Position numbers and translations under genes: made by a program. The notes under the pieces are model-generated. The model had not been told where the DNA came from. It did not search any database and worked only from the letters and a program-made list of their open reading frames with translations. Shown here one piece after another: positions 543 to 6,099 of a stretch of DNA of 6,099 bases (position 1 is the stretch's first letter; each line of letters opens with the position of its first letter). The stretch covers positions 1-6,099 of the forward strand of contig QMUK01000069.1 of NCBI GenBank assembly GCA_003660555.1, given 5' to 3'. The DNA comes from Thermococci archaeon. GTDB lineage: Archaea > Hadarchaeota > B88-G9.

Positions 543-1682
543 CTACTCCTCTATTATTTCCACGTTAGCCCTGGGCACGGTTACCCTTCTACCGTCTTCT
601 AATTCCACTTCCACAACTCTAACCTTGGATCCTGTTTCTATCAGTTGTGGTTCCACCGGTAAGGAGACTACTCTTCCTATTGCTCCGAAATACGGTTTCC
701 TTATTATTCTAACAAGCGTTCCTATGTCCATTCCTTGCGAAAATTCGGTTTCTCCTGACTCAATGCTCCTTAACTCGTTTACATCTAAATCAGATCTAGG
801 AACTATTATCTCTGGCCTGACTACTCCTGCTCTTATCTGAGTGGCTCCGCTTATGGATGCCTCCATACCTTCGAATTTCTTTAATATCTCGAAAGTTCTA
901 TCTGACATGTTCATCTTCCCAAATCCTTCTGTGACTATTAGGGTAAGAGGTACGTCCTCGTGTCCAGTAATAGCTACCCCTATTTCGTAACCTAGCCACT
1001 TCCTTAAATCTCTGTCCTCTATTCCGCCCACAACTATTCCTCTTGCACCGACTTCTATGGCCTTCTGTATTCCATCATATGTCACTAGAGACCCTCCAAT
1101 TAGCACTTTTCCATCTGCATCACTGTCTATTTTCTCGGAAGTTAATATCTCCTTTGGAGAGTTTACCGCTAGTTTTATTTCTCCTCTCCTCTCCCCACCA
1201 ATTCCAAATATTCCTTGTATAAATGCCGCTGCAGTTTCTATGACTGCTCCCTCTCCGGGCAGAACGTCCACTACTTCCCCAGGGATGTAAGCGTTCACCT
1301 CTATTTTAACTGGAGGTTCCCTTATGACGACTTGTCCAGTGACATCTGATATGTGTTCTATTATACCATCCGTTGGTGCTACACACTCACTCTTAAATAG
1401 ACCGAAAAACGCTTTATATCCCGCTATTATCTCACCCTTACTCACTTTATCTCCTTCTTTCTTCAATAAGAAATCTCTTATCTCATCTGGTTCTACATTC
1501 AGTAGCCTAGCCACGTTGACTACTTTAGATTCTCCAGGAATCTCTGCCACTGCTACTATATCGTCCGGAGACACTTCCTGGCCTTTCTTCACCAACACTT
1601 CTCCTTTTATTGGCAACCTTCTGGTTTTCCTGACTATGGTAGCTTCTTTCCTCTTTAGTCCAGGAGTGTATGCGTGAGCCAT
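543..1682 (-). CDS. Barrel-sandwich (lipoyl-like) plus C-terminal KOW-like domain protein
   Basis: This is a 379-residue soluble protein with no signal peptide or membrane span. Residues about 24-92 (GEVLVKKGQEVSPDDIVA, later KKEGDKVSKGEIIAGY) and 98-145 (VAPTDGIIEHISDVTGQVVI, PGEVVDVLPGEGAVIE) have the 'capsule' wording of barrel-sandwich hybrids such as RnfC or biotinyl/lipoyl-like domains. No MKM or DKA lysine-attachment motif is present, so it is probably not modified. Residues about 189-250 (ADGKVLIGGSLVTYDGIQKA, ARGIVVGGIEDRDL) form a Gly-rich alpha/beta segment I cannot name. Residues about 320-379 (GTLVRIIRKPYFGAIGRVVS, then GRRVTVPRANVEIIE) resemble a KOW/SH3-like barrel as in NusG/Spt5. 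The ATG abuts the TAG of the upstream ATPase gene with no gap, and AGGTGG lies 4 nt upstream, so the two are probably translationally coupled. A cytoplasmic partner of the ATPase or membrane subunits is inferred. Coding is certain; the function is unknown. Confidence 0.85.
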   Translation of the reverse strand: MAHAYTPGLKRKEATIVRKTRRLPIKGEVLVKKGQEVSPDDIVAVAEIPGESKVVNVARLLNVEPDEIRDFLLKKEGDKVSKGEIIAGYKAFFGLFKSECVAPTDGIIEHISDVTGQVVIREPPVKIEVNAYIPGEVVDVLPGEGAVIETAAAFIQGIFGIGGERRGEIKLAVNSPKEILTSEKIDSDADGKVLIGGSLVTYDGIQKAIEVGARGIVVGGIEDRDLRKWLGYEIGVAITGHEDVPLTLIVTEGFGKMNMSDRTFEILKKFEGMEASISGATQIRAGVVRPEIIVPRSDLDVNELRSIESGETEFSQGMDIGTLVRIIRKPYFGAIGRVVSLPVEPQLIETGSKVRVVEVELEDGRRVTVPRANVEIIEE

Positions 1683-3572
1683 CTAACCACCTGGTTCCAC
1701 ATAATTTTCTAATACTTCCCTCTCATATGCTCCTATTGAGTCGAACCAATCCAGCAATAATTTCCTTCTTAACTTATCGTCTTCCGGTAGGGTTAATGGT
1801 CTGCCTCTAGCGTCTAAGACTATCCCTGCGACTCCTCCACTCACCTTGGTCTCTATCTCTCTTCCCGGTCCTCGGCCGAGATCCAATGCCTTGGAGGGTT
1901 TCGCTTGTATTACTGCTTCCTCAGATTCTCCGAGTTTTATTCTCTTGAGTTCTCCAAAATTAAGTTTTAGATCTATTTCCTCTTCTCCTTTGAGTATTTT
2001 TACTTCCATTGCCTTCTCGCCTAATTTTAGCTGTCCCCTTGGCGATATTACAGTTCCTAGCCATATTAAACAGTCCTTCTCGAAGACATCTAGGGCCGCT
2101 TTCGGATGAACGGTAGAGAGAACGCCCAAGTGAGGCATCATGAATATGCTATCAACAGCAATCCTAGTCACTCCCTCTGGCTGGAACGCGTCTATGAGCA
2201 TTAACATCGCCTGCTCTCTTCTGGGCGCGTGAGCATTTACCCCGCCACTACCAACTATTATGTGGACTCTCATCATGTCTATGAATGTCTCCTCTCCCGT
2301 TTCTTGTTCGAATACATCGCTTACAGTCCTAACCCTCTGAACCCCTCTTAGTCCCCTCGCTAGTAATTTGTGTTGCTCAAATGCCAATCTCATTCCTTCC
2401 CTATTGACTCCCTGTTCTATCAGGAGGTCGAGTATTGTCTGAGGTATCGTTGTTGGTCTTATCATCTTGTTCCTCAATCTGTTCCTAACGTCTGCCTCGT
2501 CCACTTCCAGAGGAACCCATCTAATTATGTTTCTCAATCCAGCTTCTTTCATTACGTTACATATGCTGTAGCTCATCCCCAAGTTAGCGCTTACGCTCTT
2601 AGTATATCTTCCGTCGAAGACTGAAAACACGTCAGTGGTGGCTCCTCCCGGATCTGTTCCTATGACGTTTATCCCGTACTTCTTGGCTAATTCTTGGATT
2701 ATCATCCCCACTGCTCCAGGAGTCGGTAATATCGGAGCATCAACCCATCTCAAGAGTTTGTCGTATCCTGGTGCATGAGACATGACGTGCTCTAGGAACA
2801 GCTCGTGTATGGCATCTCTGGCTGGTCCAACGTTTTCTACTTCCAAGACTGGCCTTATGTTGTCTACTATTTTTATCGCGAACTTCTCGCCCAATACCTT
2901 TTTCACGTGCTCTCTAGCGTCTTTATTCCCAGCGTAAACTATCGGAAGTTGGAAAGTAGTGCCCAATCTTGGCCTGGGTTCCGCTGCCGATATCAGTTCA
3001 GCCAACTCCACCACGTGAGTTATCGTTCCTCCGTCCGTACCTCCAGCGAGAAGGATCATATCTGGTCTCAGTGTCCTAATCCTCTGGATCTTCTCATGCA
3101 CAGGTCTTCCGTCGTCTATCGAAACTACGTCCATGACTATTGCCCCAGCTCCTAGAGCTGCTCTCTCTGCACTTTCTGCAGTCATCACCTTGACCACACC
3201 GAAGACCATCATTTGGAGGCCGCCACCAGCACTACTAGTAGAAACATAGAGATCTACCCCAACTGAGTCTGAATTAGGCTCTATTATTCCTTCTCCATCC
3301 TCTCTCAGTATTTTGTGACCTGTGAGTTCCTCTACCTCTCTGACTGAATTCTTAACTCCAAGGGTGACGTCTTCAAATGGGGCTTCTACTGTAGTTGGGG
3401 CTTCTCCCCTCACCACTAATCTGTAATCTCCATTTTCCATTCTCTTGATCAAAATCGCCTTAGTCGTGGTCGATCCCACGTCTGTAGCTAGTATTACTCT
3501 CACTCTCTCTGGATCTATCCTCCTAACATTAGATGACGATGGACTCGTAGTCTCATTTCCTCTGTCTTCCAA
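1683..3572 (-). CDS. MutL/GlmL-family ASKHA ATPase with C-terminal extension
   Basis: This 629-residue protein belongs to the 'glutamate mutase L' family, whose studied member is tied to coenzyme-B12-dependent methylaspartate mutase. The ASKHA ATPase motifs are intact: phosphate-1 at 29-41 (ATDVGSTTTKAIL, with D31), SSAGGGLQM at 113-121, TAESAERAALGAGA at 131-144, LLAGGTDGG at 174-182, phosphate-2 at 305-316 (GTDPGGATTDVF), and an adenosine-type loop at 440-447 (VGSGGVNA). The ATPase core ends near 505. Residues 506-629 form an extra beta-rich region containing LDLGRGPGREIE, then GGVAGIVLDARGRPLTLP, and a helical tail; as I recall, classical MutL is only about 460 residues. The start is TTG at 3572, with AGGGGGT seven bases upstream; a GTG at codon 24 is the alternative. 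It sits between membrane-protein genes and the sandwich/KOW gene, without mutase subunits, so a glutamate-mutase role is unlikely here. Family certain, role unknown. Confidence 0.93.
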   Translation of the reverse strand: MEDRGNETTSPSSSNVRRIDPERVRVILATDVGSTTTKAILIKRMENGDYRLVVRGEAPTTVEAPFEDVTLGVKNSVREVEELTGHKILREDGEGIIEPNSDSVGVDLYVSTSSAGGGLQMMVFGVVKVMTAESAERAALGAGAIVMDVVSIDDGRPVHEKIQRIRTLRPDMILLAGGTDGGTITHVVELAELISAAEPRPRLGTTFQLPIVYAGNKDAREHVKKVLGEKFAIKIVDNIRPVLEVENVGPARDAIHELFLEHVMSHAPGYDKLLRWVDAPILPTPGAVGMIIQELAKKYGINVIGTDPGGATTDVFSVFDGRYTKSVSANLGMSYSICNVMKEAGLRNIIRWVPLEVDEADVRNRLRNKMIRPTTIPQTILDLLIEQGVNREGMRLAFEQHKLLARGLRGVQRVRTVSDVFEQETGEETFIDMMRVHIIVGSGGVNAHAPRREQAMLMLIDAFQPEGVTRIAVDSIFMMPHLGVLSTVHPKAALDVFEKDCLIWLGTVISPRGQLKLGEKAMEVKILKGEEEIDLKLNFGELKRIKLGESEEAVIQAKPSKALDLGRGPGREIETKVSGGVAGIVLDARGRPLTLPEDDKLRRKLLLDWFDSIGAYEREVLENYVEPGG

Positions 3573-3608
3573 ATCTTAACCCCCTGGAAAAAACGAGGAG
3601 GAGGGTTT
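3573..3608 (-). promoter_or_regulatory. 36-bp leader of the ATPase gene: pyrimidine repeat, T6 tract and RBS
   Basis: This is the only real gap inside the cluster. Read on the minus strand it contains CCCTCCTCCTC, then TTTTTT (3593-3588), then AGGGGGT (3585-3579), and the TTG start at 3572. AGGGGGT matches the Shine-Dalgarno core AGGAGGT at six of seven positions, with suitable spacing, and supports the TTG start. The CCTCCTCCT stretch is complementary to Shine-Dalgarno-type sequence, including an AGGAGG inside the gene at 3524-3519. The U6 tract could cause partial termination after the membrane-protein genes. The RBS is well supported; the other roles are speculative. Confidence 0.4.
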
Positions 3609-4343
3609 TTAGGTTTTACCCTCCCCCTTGAAGAGCGAATACGAAAGTATTGCTAGAATCACTCCTATGATGAAAAGCGTCGAAGTTATTTTCCAATTGA
3701 CTATCATGTCGTGTACTCTGCCTATTAGTAGCGAAACCCTTGCCATGACTGTGTATCCGAATGCCGCTCCGAAGGCCACCATCATTGTCCATCTGCCTAT
3801 CACTCCCCAAGTCCTCACTGAGCCCCTCTCAGTTGTGAAGAAGAAGTAAGCCAGCGTTCCAGTCACTCCTATGAATATTATCAGTGCGTTGATGAACTCT
3901 ATCCAGTTCCCCTCTATCAGTGGGTATATTAGGTCCAACATCGTATCTAGGATCTGCTTAACCAATTGGGTTTGAGCAGCACCACTCATAGCTAGCCCTA
4001 GTCCTATTCCCACGAATATTGCCATGGGTATTCTGTAAATCCACAGGTACCTCCTCGAGAAGAAGAAGTACAGAAGTACTCCTAGGAACATCGGCAATAT
4101 GTATTTCCCGAATAGATATCCAGTATTGTAAAGAGTTAACCCTGCTGCAATTGTTTCTCCCATTGGTTTTATTGCGTTGGTGTAAACGTATTCTATGGCG
4201 AACATTATTCCGAAGCCAACACCTGATCCTATGAATATGTGTTCTGCTAGTCTGTACGCTCTGTTCTCCCTCCAAAGGAAGCTATATATCACTAGCGTGA
4301 AAGTCATAGCCATAGCTATTGCTAACGTTTCTACCAATGACAA
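3609..4343 (-). CDS. Integral membrane protein, about seven spans, unknown function
   Basis: The protein has 244 residues from the preferred TTG start at 4343. A GTG at 4352 would add three residues (MLN) but lies inside the Shine-Dalgarno sequence, whereas TTG has GGAGG eight bases upstream, as in the neighbouring genes. Numbered from the GTG, likely spans are about 6-26, 38-56, 84-99, 105-124, 150-172, 185-210 and 221-243. Charged loops include WRENRAYRLAEHIFIGSG near 27-44, TTERGSVRTWGVIGR near 173-187 and RVHDMIVNWK near 212-221. The Asn/Tyr/Arg/Glu-His pattern after the first span looks conserved-family-like; I recall similar wording in bacterial membrane proteins encoded beside MutL-like genes. 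No known transporter motif or signal peptide cleavage site is seen. It starts one base after the upstream stop. It is likely a core membrane subunit of the complex inferred for this operon; its function is unknown. Confidence 0.85.
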   Translation of the reverse strand: MSLVETLAIAMAMTFTLVIYSFLWRENRAYRLAEHIFIGSGVGFGIMFAIEYVYTNAIKPMGETIAAGLTLYNTGYLFGKYILPMFLGVLLYFFFSRRYLWIYRIPMAIFVGIGLGLAMSGAAQTQLVKQILDTMLDLIYPLIEGNWIEFINALIIFIGVTGTLAYFFFTTERGSVRTWGVIGRWTMMVAFGAAFGYTVMARVSLLIGRVHDMIVNWKITSTLFIIGVILAILSYSLFKGEGKT

Positions 4344-4344
4344 G

Positions 4345-5214
4345 TTAAGCACCTCCCGATTCCCTTCTTCTTTCTTCCTCTTGCCTCCTTCTCTCTAGGA
4401 GATACTGTATGTTTCCTATTACAATGAATATTATTATTAGTCCGTGAACAAAGCTCTGGGCTACCATACCAGCCATTCCGAGACCTTTTCTTTCCACGAG
4501 CAATTCGTACTCTGCAGCTCCCCTGAGACCTCCTAGTATTCCCACGAAGTACTTGGGGTAATATGGGTAAAACCCAGGAGCTGAGACTGCGGTAACTGCC
4601 GTTCCCATGGTCACGTTATATGGAACTCCTATCTGTCTCAGTAATTCCTCTGCCCCGGGAGTTCCAGAGGAGAAAGACACTATCAATTTGACGTCGTGGG
4701 CGTCTTTTACTCCTTCGAAAATGGGCATGTCTTTCAGCATGTTTCCGTAGTTATCCTGTTCCTTTATTCCTGCGACGTTCTCTCCCAATCTGGCCATTCC
4801 GACTTCTCCTCCTGGGATCCATCCGATATTAACGAATTTCTTCCCGTAATCTGGAAGTTCATCTACTGGTTCAGTCTTGTTCAATCCATAGACCTCTCTG
4901 ATCGTGTTCTCGATCCAAGGAACTCCTTGTAGCCAGAAGGCTACCGCTATTATTCTAGCGTCTTTTCTCCTCAAGTGTTCCCATATGGCAACAGATTGCG
5001 GAAATTGTTCCACGTAAGTACTTGCATCGTAATCAAATGAGAGTATGACTACATCTCCTGGTTCTAACTTCTCTATGGCATCGTAAAGACCCTTGGTGTG
5101 AGGACTCACCTTCATGCTCATTTCCCATCCCATGACCAGAGGAAATATGACTGCTGCGAAAACTAGAATGTAGAGGATTCTTCTGCTCCATTCAATTTGA
5201 ATTTCAGCTGCCAT
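4345..5214 (-). CDS. Bitopic membrane protein with large extracytoplasmic alpha/beta domain
   Basis: This 289-residue protein has one membrane span near the N-terminus (about 12-30, preceded by RR) and one near the C-terminus (about 248-268), followed by a highly charged tail (LLERRRQEEERRRE). By the positive-inside rule both ends are cytoplasmic, and residues about 32-245 face outside. This domain alternates beta strands and helices: GDVVILSFDYDAST (53-66), ARIIAVAFW (86-94), YGKKFVNIGWIPGGEVGM (123-140), VKLIVSFSSGTPGAEELL (175-192), TAVTAVSAPGFYPYY (205-219) and VGILGGLRGAAEYELL (224-239). That resembles a Rossmann-like or periplasmic-binding-like lobe. The Gly/aromatic motifs look like those of a widespread uncharacterised family, but I could not confirm this. 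The ATG at 5214 has GGAGGGTGAT nine bases upstream and follows the previous stop by 5 bp. A sensing or scaffold role outside the membrane is inference. Confidence 0.85.
   Translation of the reverse strand: MAAEIQIEWSRRILYILVFAAVIFPLVMGWEMSMKVSPHTKGLYDAIEKLEPGDVVILSFDYDASTYVEQFPQSVAIWEHLRRKDARIIAVAFWLQGVPWIENTIREVYGLNKTEPVDELPDYGKKFVNIGWIPGGEVGMARLGENVAGIKEQDNYGNMLKDMPIFEGVKDAHDVKLIVSFSSGTPGAEELLRQIGVPYNVTMGTAVTAVSAPGFYPYYPKYFVGILGGLRGAAEYELLVERKGLGMAGMVAQSFVHGLIIIFIVIGNIQYLLERRRQEEERRRESGGA
4352..4356 (-). promoter_or_regulatory. Shine-Dalgarno site that decides the start at 4343
   Basis: The minus strand reads GGGAGGTG just before the end of the upstream gene, then CTTAAC, then TTG. GGAGG (4356-4352) is 8 nt from the TTG at 4343, matching the 9-nt spacing of the two upstream genes in the operon. 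The in-frame GTG at 4352-4350 overlaps this site with no spacer, so it cannot be the start served by it. Confidence 0.7.
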
Positions 5215-5219
5215 TCACA

Positions 5220-5876
5220 TCACCCTCCAGTGGGTCCTAAAACTCCTCTTTCCCTACCCATCAGTGTCCTTATTCCTAGGGAAAGTACTCCTATCGTGGC
5301 TGCTATTAGAATTCCTCTCATTCCTGCCTTGTTTGGTACCGCCATTATCCAGTCCGTGAGAAGAGGGAAGTCTGCCCATATTTTCTCTCCTAGAGGAACT
5401 CTTCCAAGCATCACTAGGGTTGCAGCCACTAGTAAGACTACTGCCTCCATCGTTCTAGCTCTAAACGCCCTATAGGCAGCCGATGCTATGTAAAAGGCTA
5501 GCATCGAGAACATAGTCGCGCTTAGAGGCACTATTATGTAATTGTATAATCCTTGGAAAATGGGACCTCCTGTTACAGTTCCCTCCTTCCACCACTCGTA
5601 GAACCCAACTATTATGAAGACGAACATTGCTATGAACAAGAAGACACTGTTGTACCATCCTGGCCTCTTCCTGAGTATGTTGTGGATGTGTATTCTGCTG
5701 ACGTTTATCACTCCTATTCCTATGGCAAACGCTCCCATTATCATTACCCAGTCCTTGAGCCACTCTGCCCCTTGATCTAGATACTTGAAGAATCCGGCTT
5801 CTCCTTTTATGTAAAAACTAAATATCATCCACATTCCTGTTATAAAAAGTATTGCCAACGGTAAAGTTCTCTTCAT
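5220..5876 (-). CDS. Integral membrane protein, about six spans, unknown function
   Basis: The protein has 218 residues, with hydrophobic spans at about 4-22, 42-61, 75-95, 112-134, 142-158 and 185-204. Between spans are short basic loops, such as RIHIHNILRKRPGWYNS (61-77) and YRAFRARTMEA (135-145), and a segment with VMLGRVPLGEKIW (155-167). The end carries IRTLMGRERGVLGPTGG, a basic cytoplasmic-type tail. The YRAFRAR...VMLGRVPLG and GRER..LG signatures look like family hallmarks rather than random membrane sequence, and I recall comparable ones in bacterial proteins near MutL-like genes. The ATG start at 5876 is preceded by AGGAGGG with nine bases between GGAGG and the start. The neighbouring genes lie 16 bp upstream and 5 bp downstream, so it is co-transcribed with both. 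No transport or enzymatic motif is visible. It is likely a membrane subunit of the same complex; its function is unknown. Confidence 0.85.
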   Translation of the reverse strand: MKRTLPLAILFITGMWMIFSFYIKGEAGFFKYLDQGAEWLKDWVMIMGAFAIGIGVINVSRIHIHNILRKRPGWYNSVFLFIAMFVFIIVGFYEWWKEGTVTGGPIFQGLYNYIIVPLSATMFSMLAFYIASAAYRAFRARTMEAVVLLVAATLVMLGRVPLGEKIWADFPLLTDWIMAVPNKAGMRGILIAATIGVLSLGIRTLMGRERGVLGPTGG

Positions 5877-5892
5877 GTGTACATCCCTCCTA

Positions 5893-6099
5893 CTACTTGC
5901 CCAGTAATGTTTTTAGCCACATTAATTTCTCCGCTAATCCCTCTGCCCCTAGTCCTTTGGCTAATCCAGCTAAACTCACTGTAATAGTTCCTATTATTAT
6001 CAAGGCCAGTGCTACAGCTTTTGAATAGTCCTGACCAGCTATGGATCCAATTTGCACTGGGTCCTTGCTCACATAAGCTCCAGCTGCATATATTTCCTC
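5893..6099 (-). CDS. C-terminus of a membrane-anchored protein (5' part outside window)
   Basis: The frame is open from the right window edge to TAG at 5895-5893, giving 68 residues and the true C-terminus of a larger protein. It reads EEIYAAGAYVSKDPVQIGSI, then AGQDYSK, followed by one hydrophobic span (about residues 28-47 of the visible part) and a helical amphipathic tail ending in LLGK. The motif of Glu-Glu, an Ala/Gly-rich turn, 'DP.Q.GS' and 'QD' just before the final span resembles what I remember of the DUF6754 family, which is also seen near MutL-like genes; this is from memory and tentative. Its stop is followed 16 bp later by the next gene, so it is the first visible member of the operon and co-transcribed with it. 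It is absent from ORF lists that require a start codon. Coding is well supported by frame, context and spacing. Confidence 0.8.
   Translation of the reverse strand, partial: EEIYAAGAYVSKDPVQIGSIAGQDYSKAVALALIIIGTITVSLAGLAKGLGAEGLAEKLMWLKTLLGK

Follow-up and report, generated by a model that had tools for sequence, protein, structure and literature searches.

Which machine does a MutL-type ATPase serve when its gene stands in a run of genes for membrane proteins? This question is raised by a 6,099-nucleotide contig (GenBank QMUK01000069.1, designated C83) of the 1.3-Mb genome bin of an archaeon deposited as Thermococci archaeon (assembly GCA_003660555.1; Hadarchaeota). The whole contig is referred to below as the window. 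Its positions 543–6099 are occupied by six minus-strand genes which encode, in order, a partial protein of the DUF6754 family, three membrane proteins (M1, M2 and M3), a MutL-type ATPase of the ASKHA class (MutL) and a cytosolic protein (B). An earlier note, made from the sequence alone, had described this tightly spaced, same-strand run as a candidate membrane complex built around the ATPase. The run was confirmed, and its homologues were found to keep the gene order in two domains of life.

Conservation of the gene set in Archaea and Bacteria

A search with MutL recovered 20 loci in Thermoproteota, Bathyarchaeota, Njordarchaeum, Eisenbacteria, Delongbacteria, Cloacimonadota and two further bacteria. 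DUF6754 was present in 20 of 21 genomes (in the exception, M2 and M3 lie where a contig ends), and at every DUF6754 locus read into sequence this gene was followed by M1, M2 and M3 in the same order. A census of gene runs yielded 45 runs of the type DUF6754>M1>M2>M3, 12 of the type MutL>B>DUF6754>M1>M2>M3 and none that broke the order; some loci were fetched twice, and these counts are not equal to numbers of independent genomes. A few runs were incomplete away from contig edges (e.g. locus L021, in which DUF6754 and M1 are missing beside M2). Because homologues in the same order occur in two domains of life, the cassette is conserved far beyond chance.

Analysis of co-occurrence revealed that, among 250 genomes of Thermoproteota, full-length MutL, B and DUF6754 are each present in seven, and that these are the same seven (chance probability 9e-14, assuming independent genomes). 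Of 47 Eisenbacteria genomes, 45 contain DUF6754 and 43 contain B, the same two genomes being devoid of both. In the phylum of Njordarchaeum (195 genomes), DUF6754 was detected in the starting genome only. Homologues of the four-gene membrane module are therefore not scattered without one another, as judged from the census and the co-occurrence; the MutL–B pair, for its part, is contiguous with the module in Eisenbacteria, in genome G248 and in the window, and is not adjacent to it in most archaeal and Delongbacteria loci.

A seventh gene, S7, lies outside the window, on contig C108 of the same bin. It encodes a small, helical-looking protein, whose relatives in both domains are located beside cassette genes (E-values from 1e-29 to 1e-45). 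In Eisenbacteria S7 adjoins MutL, in archaea it adjoins M3 or is placed between M3 and MutL, and in others it adjoins DUF6754 or B. Searches of Pfam and NCBIfam gave no convincing family match for this protein, and the PADLOC models detected a weak similarity of its tail to Cmr5 (E=0.004). Around the seven modules of genome G109 no S7 was detected; the gene may be missing there or have diverged too far for recognition. The six-gene run described earlier stands as far as the window reaches and gains one gene beyond it. Judged from these sequence comparisons, it is strongly supported that the seven genes encode one system.

At positions 12022–15709 of locus L105 (genome G036), a relative of M3 is present without the other cassette genes and is followed by unassigned membrane proteins of 204, 208 and 328 aa. 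This stretch is possibly a further, very diverged cassette.

MutL, B and the membrane module

The window MutL matches PF13941 over its entire length (model positions 1–450 of 450; 407 bits, cut-off 27; E=1.2e-121) and has all three ASKHA nucleotide motifs intact, as had been read from the sequence before. In its fold family, full-length Pfam match and nucleotide motifs it resembles GlmL/MutL (PF13941; NCBIfam NF040745), from which it differs in its partners (B and a membrane module) and in a C-terminus that runs about 130 aa past the Pfam and GlmL models. It falls below the NCBIfam cut-offs of the GlmL equivalog (217 vs 475 bits), the GlmL subfamily (153 vs 204) and the Or-4 model (216 vs 600); the MutL of locus L007 likewise falls below the GlmL cut-offs. 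Glutamate mutase E (PF06368) was detected in none of the 27 carrier genomes, the bins of which are incomplete (a Haloferax control was positive), and the genes directly upstream of the cassette are S7 and that of DNA polymerase DP2, with no GlmE or GlmS gene just beyond the window in the same operon. A glutamate mutase operon was rejected on these grounds. The earlier idea that the ATPase serves a membrane machine rather than a mutase is consistent with the conserved system and with the failure to detect PF06368; that the proteins physically assemble and use ATP is what we infer.

In an alignment of 41 MutL sequences, the DxGGATTD form of the phosphate-2 motif is retained in the window protein and in all the bacterial ones, and ATP binding is likely throughout the family. 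The MutL tree splits archaea from bacteria, with the window MutL close to the division. Only one cysteine (C501) is invariant, whereas each subunit of the Fe-S activators of the BcrA/HgdC type contributes two conserved cysteines to a [4Fe-4S] cluster that the subunits share. A sequence search for solved relatives of MutL, M2 and DUF6754 returned none that was convincing.

B directly follows MutL in every locus of the MutL search that is not truncated by a contig end. It has no confident Pfam match. The matches behind its previous description as a barrel-sandwich/KOW protein are sub-threshold: RnfC_N at the N-terminus (E=0.008; 16.7 bits, cut-off 25.6) and the KOW domain of NusG at the C-terminus (E=0.007). 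The middle part shows a weak RraA-like (swivelling-like) match. The RnfC similarity recalls the Rnf/Nqr complexes, from which the system differs in that no other subunit was matched and no cysteines are conserved. In Delongbacteria-type genomes (L092–L097), a diverged MutL and B are fused in a single open reading frame of 976–1012 aa, and these genomes additionally hold a separate MutL–B pair. The fusion argues that the MutL and B proteins touch; by sequence comparison the two make up a cytosolic unit.

Hydropathy analysis predicted seven spans in M3, two in M2, six in M1 and one in the partial DUF6754 protein, in agreement with the membrane spans noted earlier. The DUF6754 fragment of the window is a member of PF20539 (44.7 bits, cut-off 27; E=1.2e-11), as are its relatives and the part encoded on C108 (312 bits). 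No confident Pfam match was obtained for M1, M2 or M3. In the predicted structure of M2 (mean pLDDT 91.8), two membrane helices flank a Rossmann-like domain, and DUF6754 (mean pLDDT 84.5) is predicted with a similar arrangement. The charge bias beside the helices places the soluble domain of M2 outside and that of DUF6754 inside the membrane; the two domains are therefore predicted to lie on opposite membrane sides. The confident fold of M2 and its charge bias support the exposed domain proposed in the earlier note. The best structural matches were Sir2 for DUF6754 (Z 11.4, 144 residues, 3.7 Å) and MT0777 for M2 (Z 9.6, 138 residues, 3.3 Å), with many unrelated structures close behind; at the level of predicted models these matches are generic for Rossmann-like folds. 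M2 and DUF6754, and also M1 and M3, were considered as duplicated pairs; in the first pair the order of helices and strands is similar, yet profile comparison detected no homology within either. No cysteine or histidine is conserved in 80% of the sequences of M1, M2, M3, DUF6754 or B, and hence nothing in these proteins points to a metal or Fe-S site. Bacterial DUF6754 proteins often have a long, variable N-terminal segment, which is predicted to lie outside the membrane; in some it amounts to several hundred residues that match no recognised family. In the DUF6754 proteins of two loci (L139, 867–3719; L141, 2305–4809), 570–690 residues of no recognised family precede the domain.

A single B was found together with seven modules in genomes G109 and G204, six in G180 and four in G263. 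In these multi-module genomes each module is a four-gene operon where it was read and not truncated by a contig end. The identity to the window proteins amounts to 52–61% for MutL and 47–61% for B, compared to 17–42% for M1, M2 and M3, and the branches of the M2 tree are long, sister genomes having paralogues in common. This combination of conserved cytosolic and divergent membrane parts fits what would be expected, from sequence, of a common engine with diversified modules, and is no proof of it. Neither this ratio nor S7 and the MutL::B fusions had been recognised in the earlier note.

Confident family models are available for DUF6754 and MutL only, the other five of the seven proteins having no confident Pfam match. 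No description of DUF6754, PF20539 or PF13941 was found in the open-licence literature, and neither MutL nor ASKHA proteins are mentioned in two archaeal papers on uncharacterised genes. Nor did a description turn up of the fixed association of DUF6754 with M1–M3, MutL, B and S7. Function aside, a conserved membrane system with a MutL-type ATPase is apparently undescribed. The PADLOC models of anti-phage defence gave no match for the six cassette proteins.

Possible roles of the system

We put at roughly 0.5 the probability that a shared cytosolic MutL–B engine drives or reconditions interchangeable membrane modules. MutL would bind ATP and use B to dock on the DUF6754 domain that faces the cytoplasm; as the ASKHA clamp opens and closes in an ATP-dependent manner, the movement would pass through the membrane helices to the ectodomain of M2, where it would power work or reset a spent module. 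A single MutL–B pair could in this way energise or recondition several divergent specificity modules. The subunit contacts and the coupling of ATP across the membrane are steps that we infer. The diversity of the paralogues hints weakly that the task of the modules is, most likely, the uptake or export of different solutes. In ECF-type transporters, many specificity modules can share a single energising unit; their proteins are unrelated to those of the cassette, none of whose subunits contains an ABC ATPase domain (as searched in the cassette proteins of the window and of L007). It is a more tentative proposal that the system, common to Archaea and Bacteria, is a primary active membrane machine of a new kind, which runs on an ATPase of the ASKHA (Hsp70/actin) fold and has one engine exchanged among up to seven specificity modules.

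Several observations weigh against an engine of this kind. The aspartate of the ASKHA phosphate-2 motif has a role in Mg-ATP handling, and in 17 of the 41 MutL sequences, all of them archaeal, this motif is GLGGATTN instead of DxGGATTD. These proteins may hydrolyse ATP poorly or not at all, and turnover may differ among members of the family. At the level of sequence, the loss of the aspartates is the main argument against taking every member to be a simple ATP-driven pump. In addition, no residues were recognised as the signature of a known transporter, and the numbers of MutL–B pairs and modules are equal in genomes G034 (3:3) and G035 (2:2). The seven Thermoproteota carriers include close relatives, so that the chance probability given above overstates their independence, and the named genomes are metagenome-assembled. 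An attempt to infer the substrate from neighbours failed, the adjoining genes being unrelated housekeeping genes without a common pathway, so no substrate is indicated.

The main competing explanation is an enzyme in the membrane that MutL–B reconditions: the module would be an enzyme complex, and MutL–B a reactivase or maturase that swaps a damaged cofactor or product, with ATP spent on occasional repair and not on every cycle. The diol dehydratase reactivase ejects and reloads the cofactor of a B12 enzyme, and in the reactivases of diol and glycerol dehydratases (DdrA/DdrB) an ASKHA ATPase and a smaller partner act on another machine, much as MutL is paired with B; their target, however, is a soluble enzyme with no membrane subunits, and B resembles DdrB in no match. 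A reactivase serving many enzyme modules would fit the 1:7 ratio, the loss of the archaeal phosphate-2 aspartates would fit slow turnover, and both soluble domains, of M2 and DUF6754, are Rossmann-like. Moreover, MutL has been described as a chaperone for the reactivation of glutamate mutase (PMC4682846). Set against this are the lack of conserved cysteines and histidines, which leaves no histidine-ligated cobalamin site apparent either, the missing glutamate mutase E gene in the carrier genomes and the failure to match any enzyme family. We regard this explanation as possible, and on balance doubtful.

It is unlikely that the cassette encodes a sensing or regulatory assembly, in which M2, together with the outer segment of DUF6754, would sense a ligand and MutL–B would act as a read-out in the cytosol or as a switch loaded with ATP. 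The cassette proteins contain no known signalling output domain, even though the long variable outer segments of bacterial DUF6754, the fast divergence of paralogous modules and the MutL motifs that suggest binding over hydrolysis would suit such a role. The separation of MutL–B from the module in most archaeal and Delongbacteria loci would be explained if MutL–B were an independent cytosolic system, sharing genomes and sometimes operons with the module by happenstance. This is very unlikely given that the same 7 of 250 genomes contain MutL, B and DUF6754, that MutL–B and the module are contiguous in Eisenbacteria, G248 and the window, and that S7 is found beside either part.

If the MutL–B engine is indeed driven by ATP, ASKHA ATPases would join the short list of engines of membrane machines, and the reactivase concept would stretch from soluble B12 enzymes to membrane complexes. 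Proteins of the system are present in 45 of 47 genomes of Eisenbacteria and, among archaea, in scattered lineages, five of the seven being without a confident Pfam match, and the fixed gene set makes the functional question directly testable.

Layout and surroundings of the locus

The genes of the locus and the motifs within them are listed in Table 1. The intergenic gaps along the minus-strand run are 16, 5, about −8, 36 and 0 bp. The value for M2/M3 applies to the GTG start of M3 and differs from the 1 bp reported earlier, which is obtained with an in-frame TTG start at position 4343. The window ends within DUF6754, and a 123-base exact overlap with the end of contig C108 (C83 start, minus strand) completes the gene.

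Table 1. Positions of the cassette genes and their motifs (window coordinates unless a contig is given; TM, transmembrane helix)
Feature	Position	Strand	Remarks
DUF6754, 3′ end (PF20539), truncated by contig end	5893..6099	−	TM, cytoplasmic Rossmann-like domain, TM (predicted)
DUF6754, remainder	C108:3219-4103		full-length protein 322 aa
M1, 218 aa, six-span membrane protein	5220..5876	−	no Pfam/NCBIfam family
M2, 289 aa, two TM flanking an extracytoplasmic Rossmann-like domain (predicted)	4345..5214	−	no family
M2 Rossmann-like ectodomain, residues about 49-240	4495..5070	−	invariant D154 and GAAEYE motif
M3, 247 aa, polytopic membrane protein, seven predicted spans	3609..4352	−	no family
MutL-type ASKHA ATPase, 629 aa	1683..3572	−	PF13941
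Phosphate-1 motif ATDVGSTTTK	3459..3488	−	in MutL
Phosphate-2 motif GTDPGGATTD	2631..2660	−	MutL residues 305-314; aspartates kept
Adenosine motif VGSGGVNAHAP	2223..2255	−	in MutL
B, 379 aa, cytosolic MutL partner	543..1682	−	weak domain matches only
S7, 120 aa, seventh operon gene	C108:2851-3213 (locus L053)		outside the window

The cassette is rare in the phylum of its host (M2 was found in 1 of 28 genomes). Misbinning of the contig was considered and rejected: the composition of the window is inside the range of its own genome and the DP2 protein of C108 is closest to the own phylum (52–56% identity, compared to 48–52% elsewhere), so the cassette is not obviously misbinned. A recent transfer from Eisenbacteria, hinted at by the identities of M1–M3, is not claimed, as in the MutL tree the window branches between the group of archaea and that of bacteria.

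A scan of the locus for promoters and terminators gave results at chance level, with models of bacterial sigma-70 applied to an archaeal host. Positions 3–500 of the window (plus strand) contain a convergent open reading frame, cut by the contig end, whose only matches are SMC/Rad50-like coiled coils. In one Eisenbacteria genome, a lipoate protein ligase-like gene directly follows M3 (L007, 16148–17119), and in an Eisenbacteria genome a gene of the trimethylamine methyltransferase (MTTB) family is located near a cassette (L149, 2126–3709).

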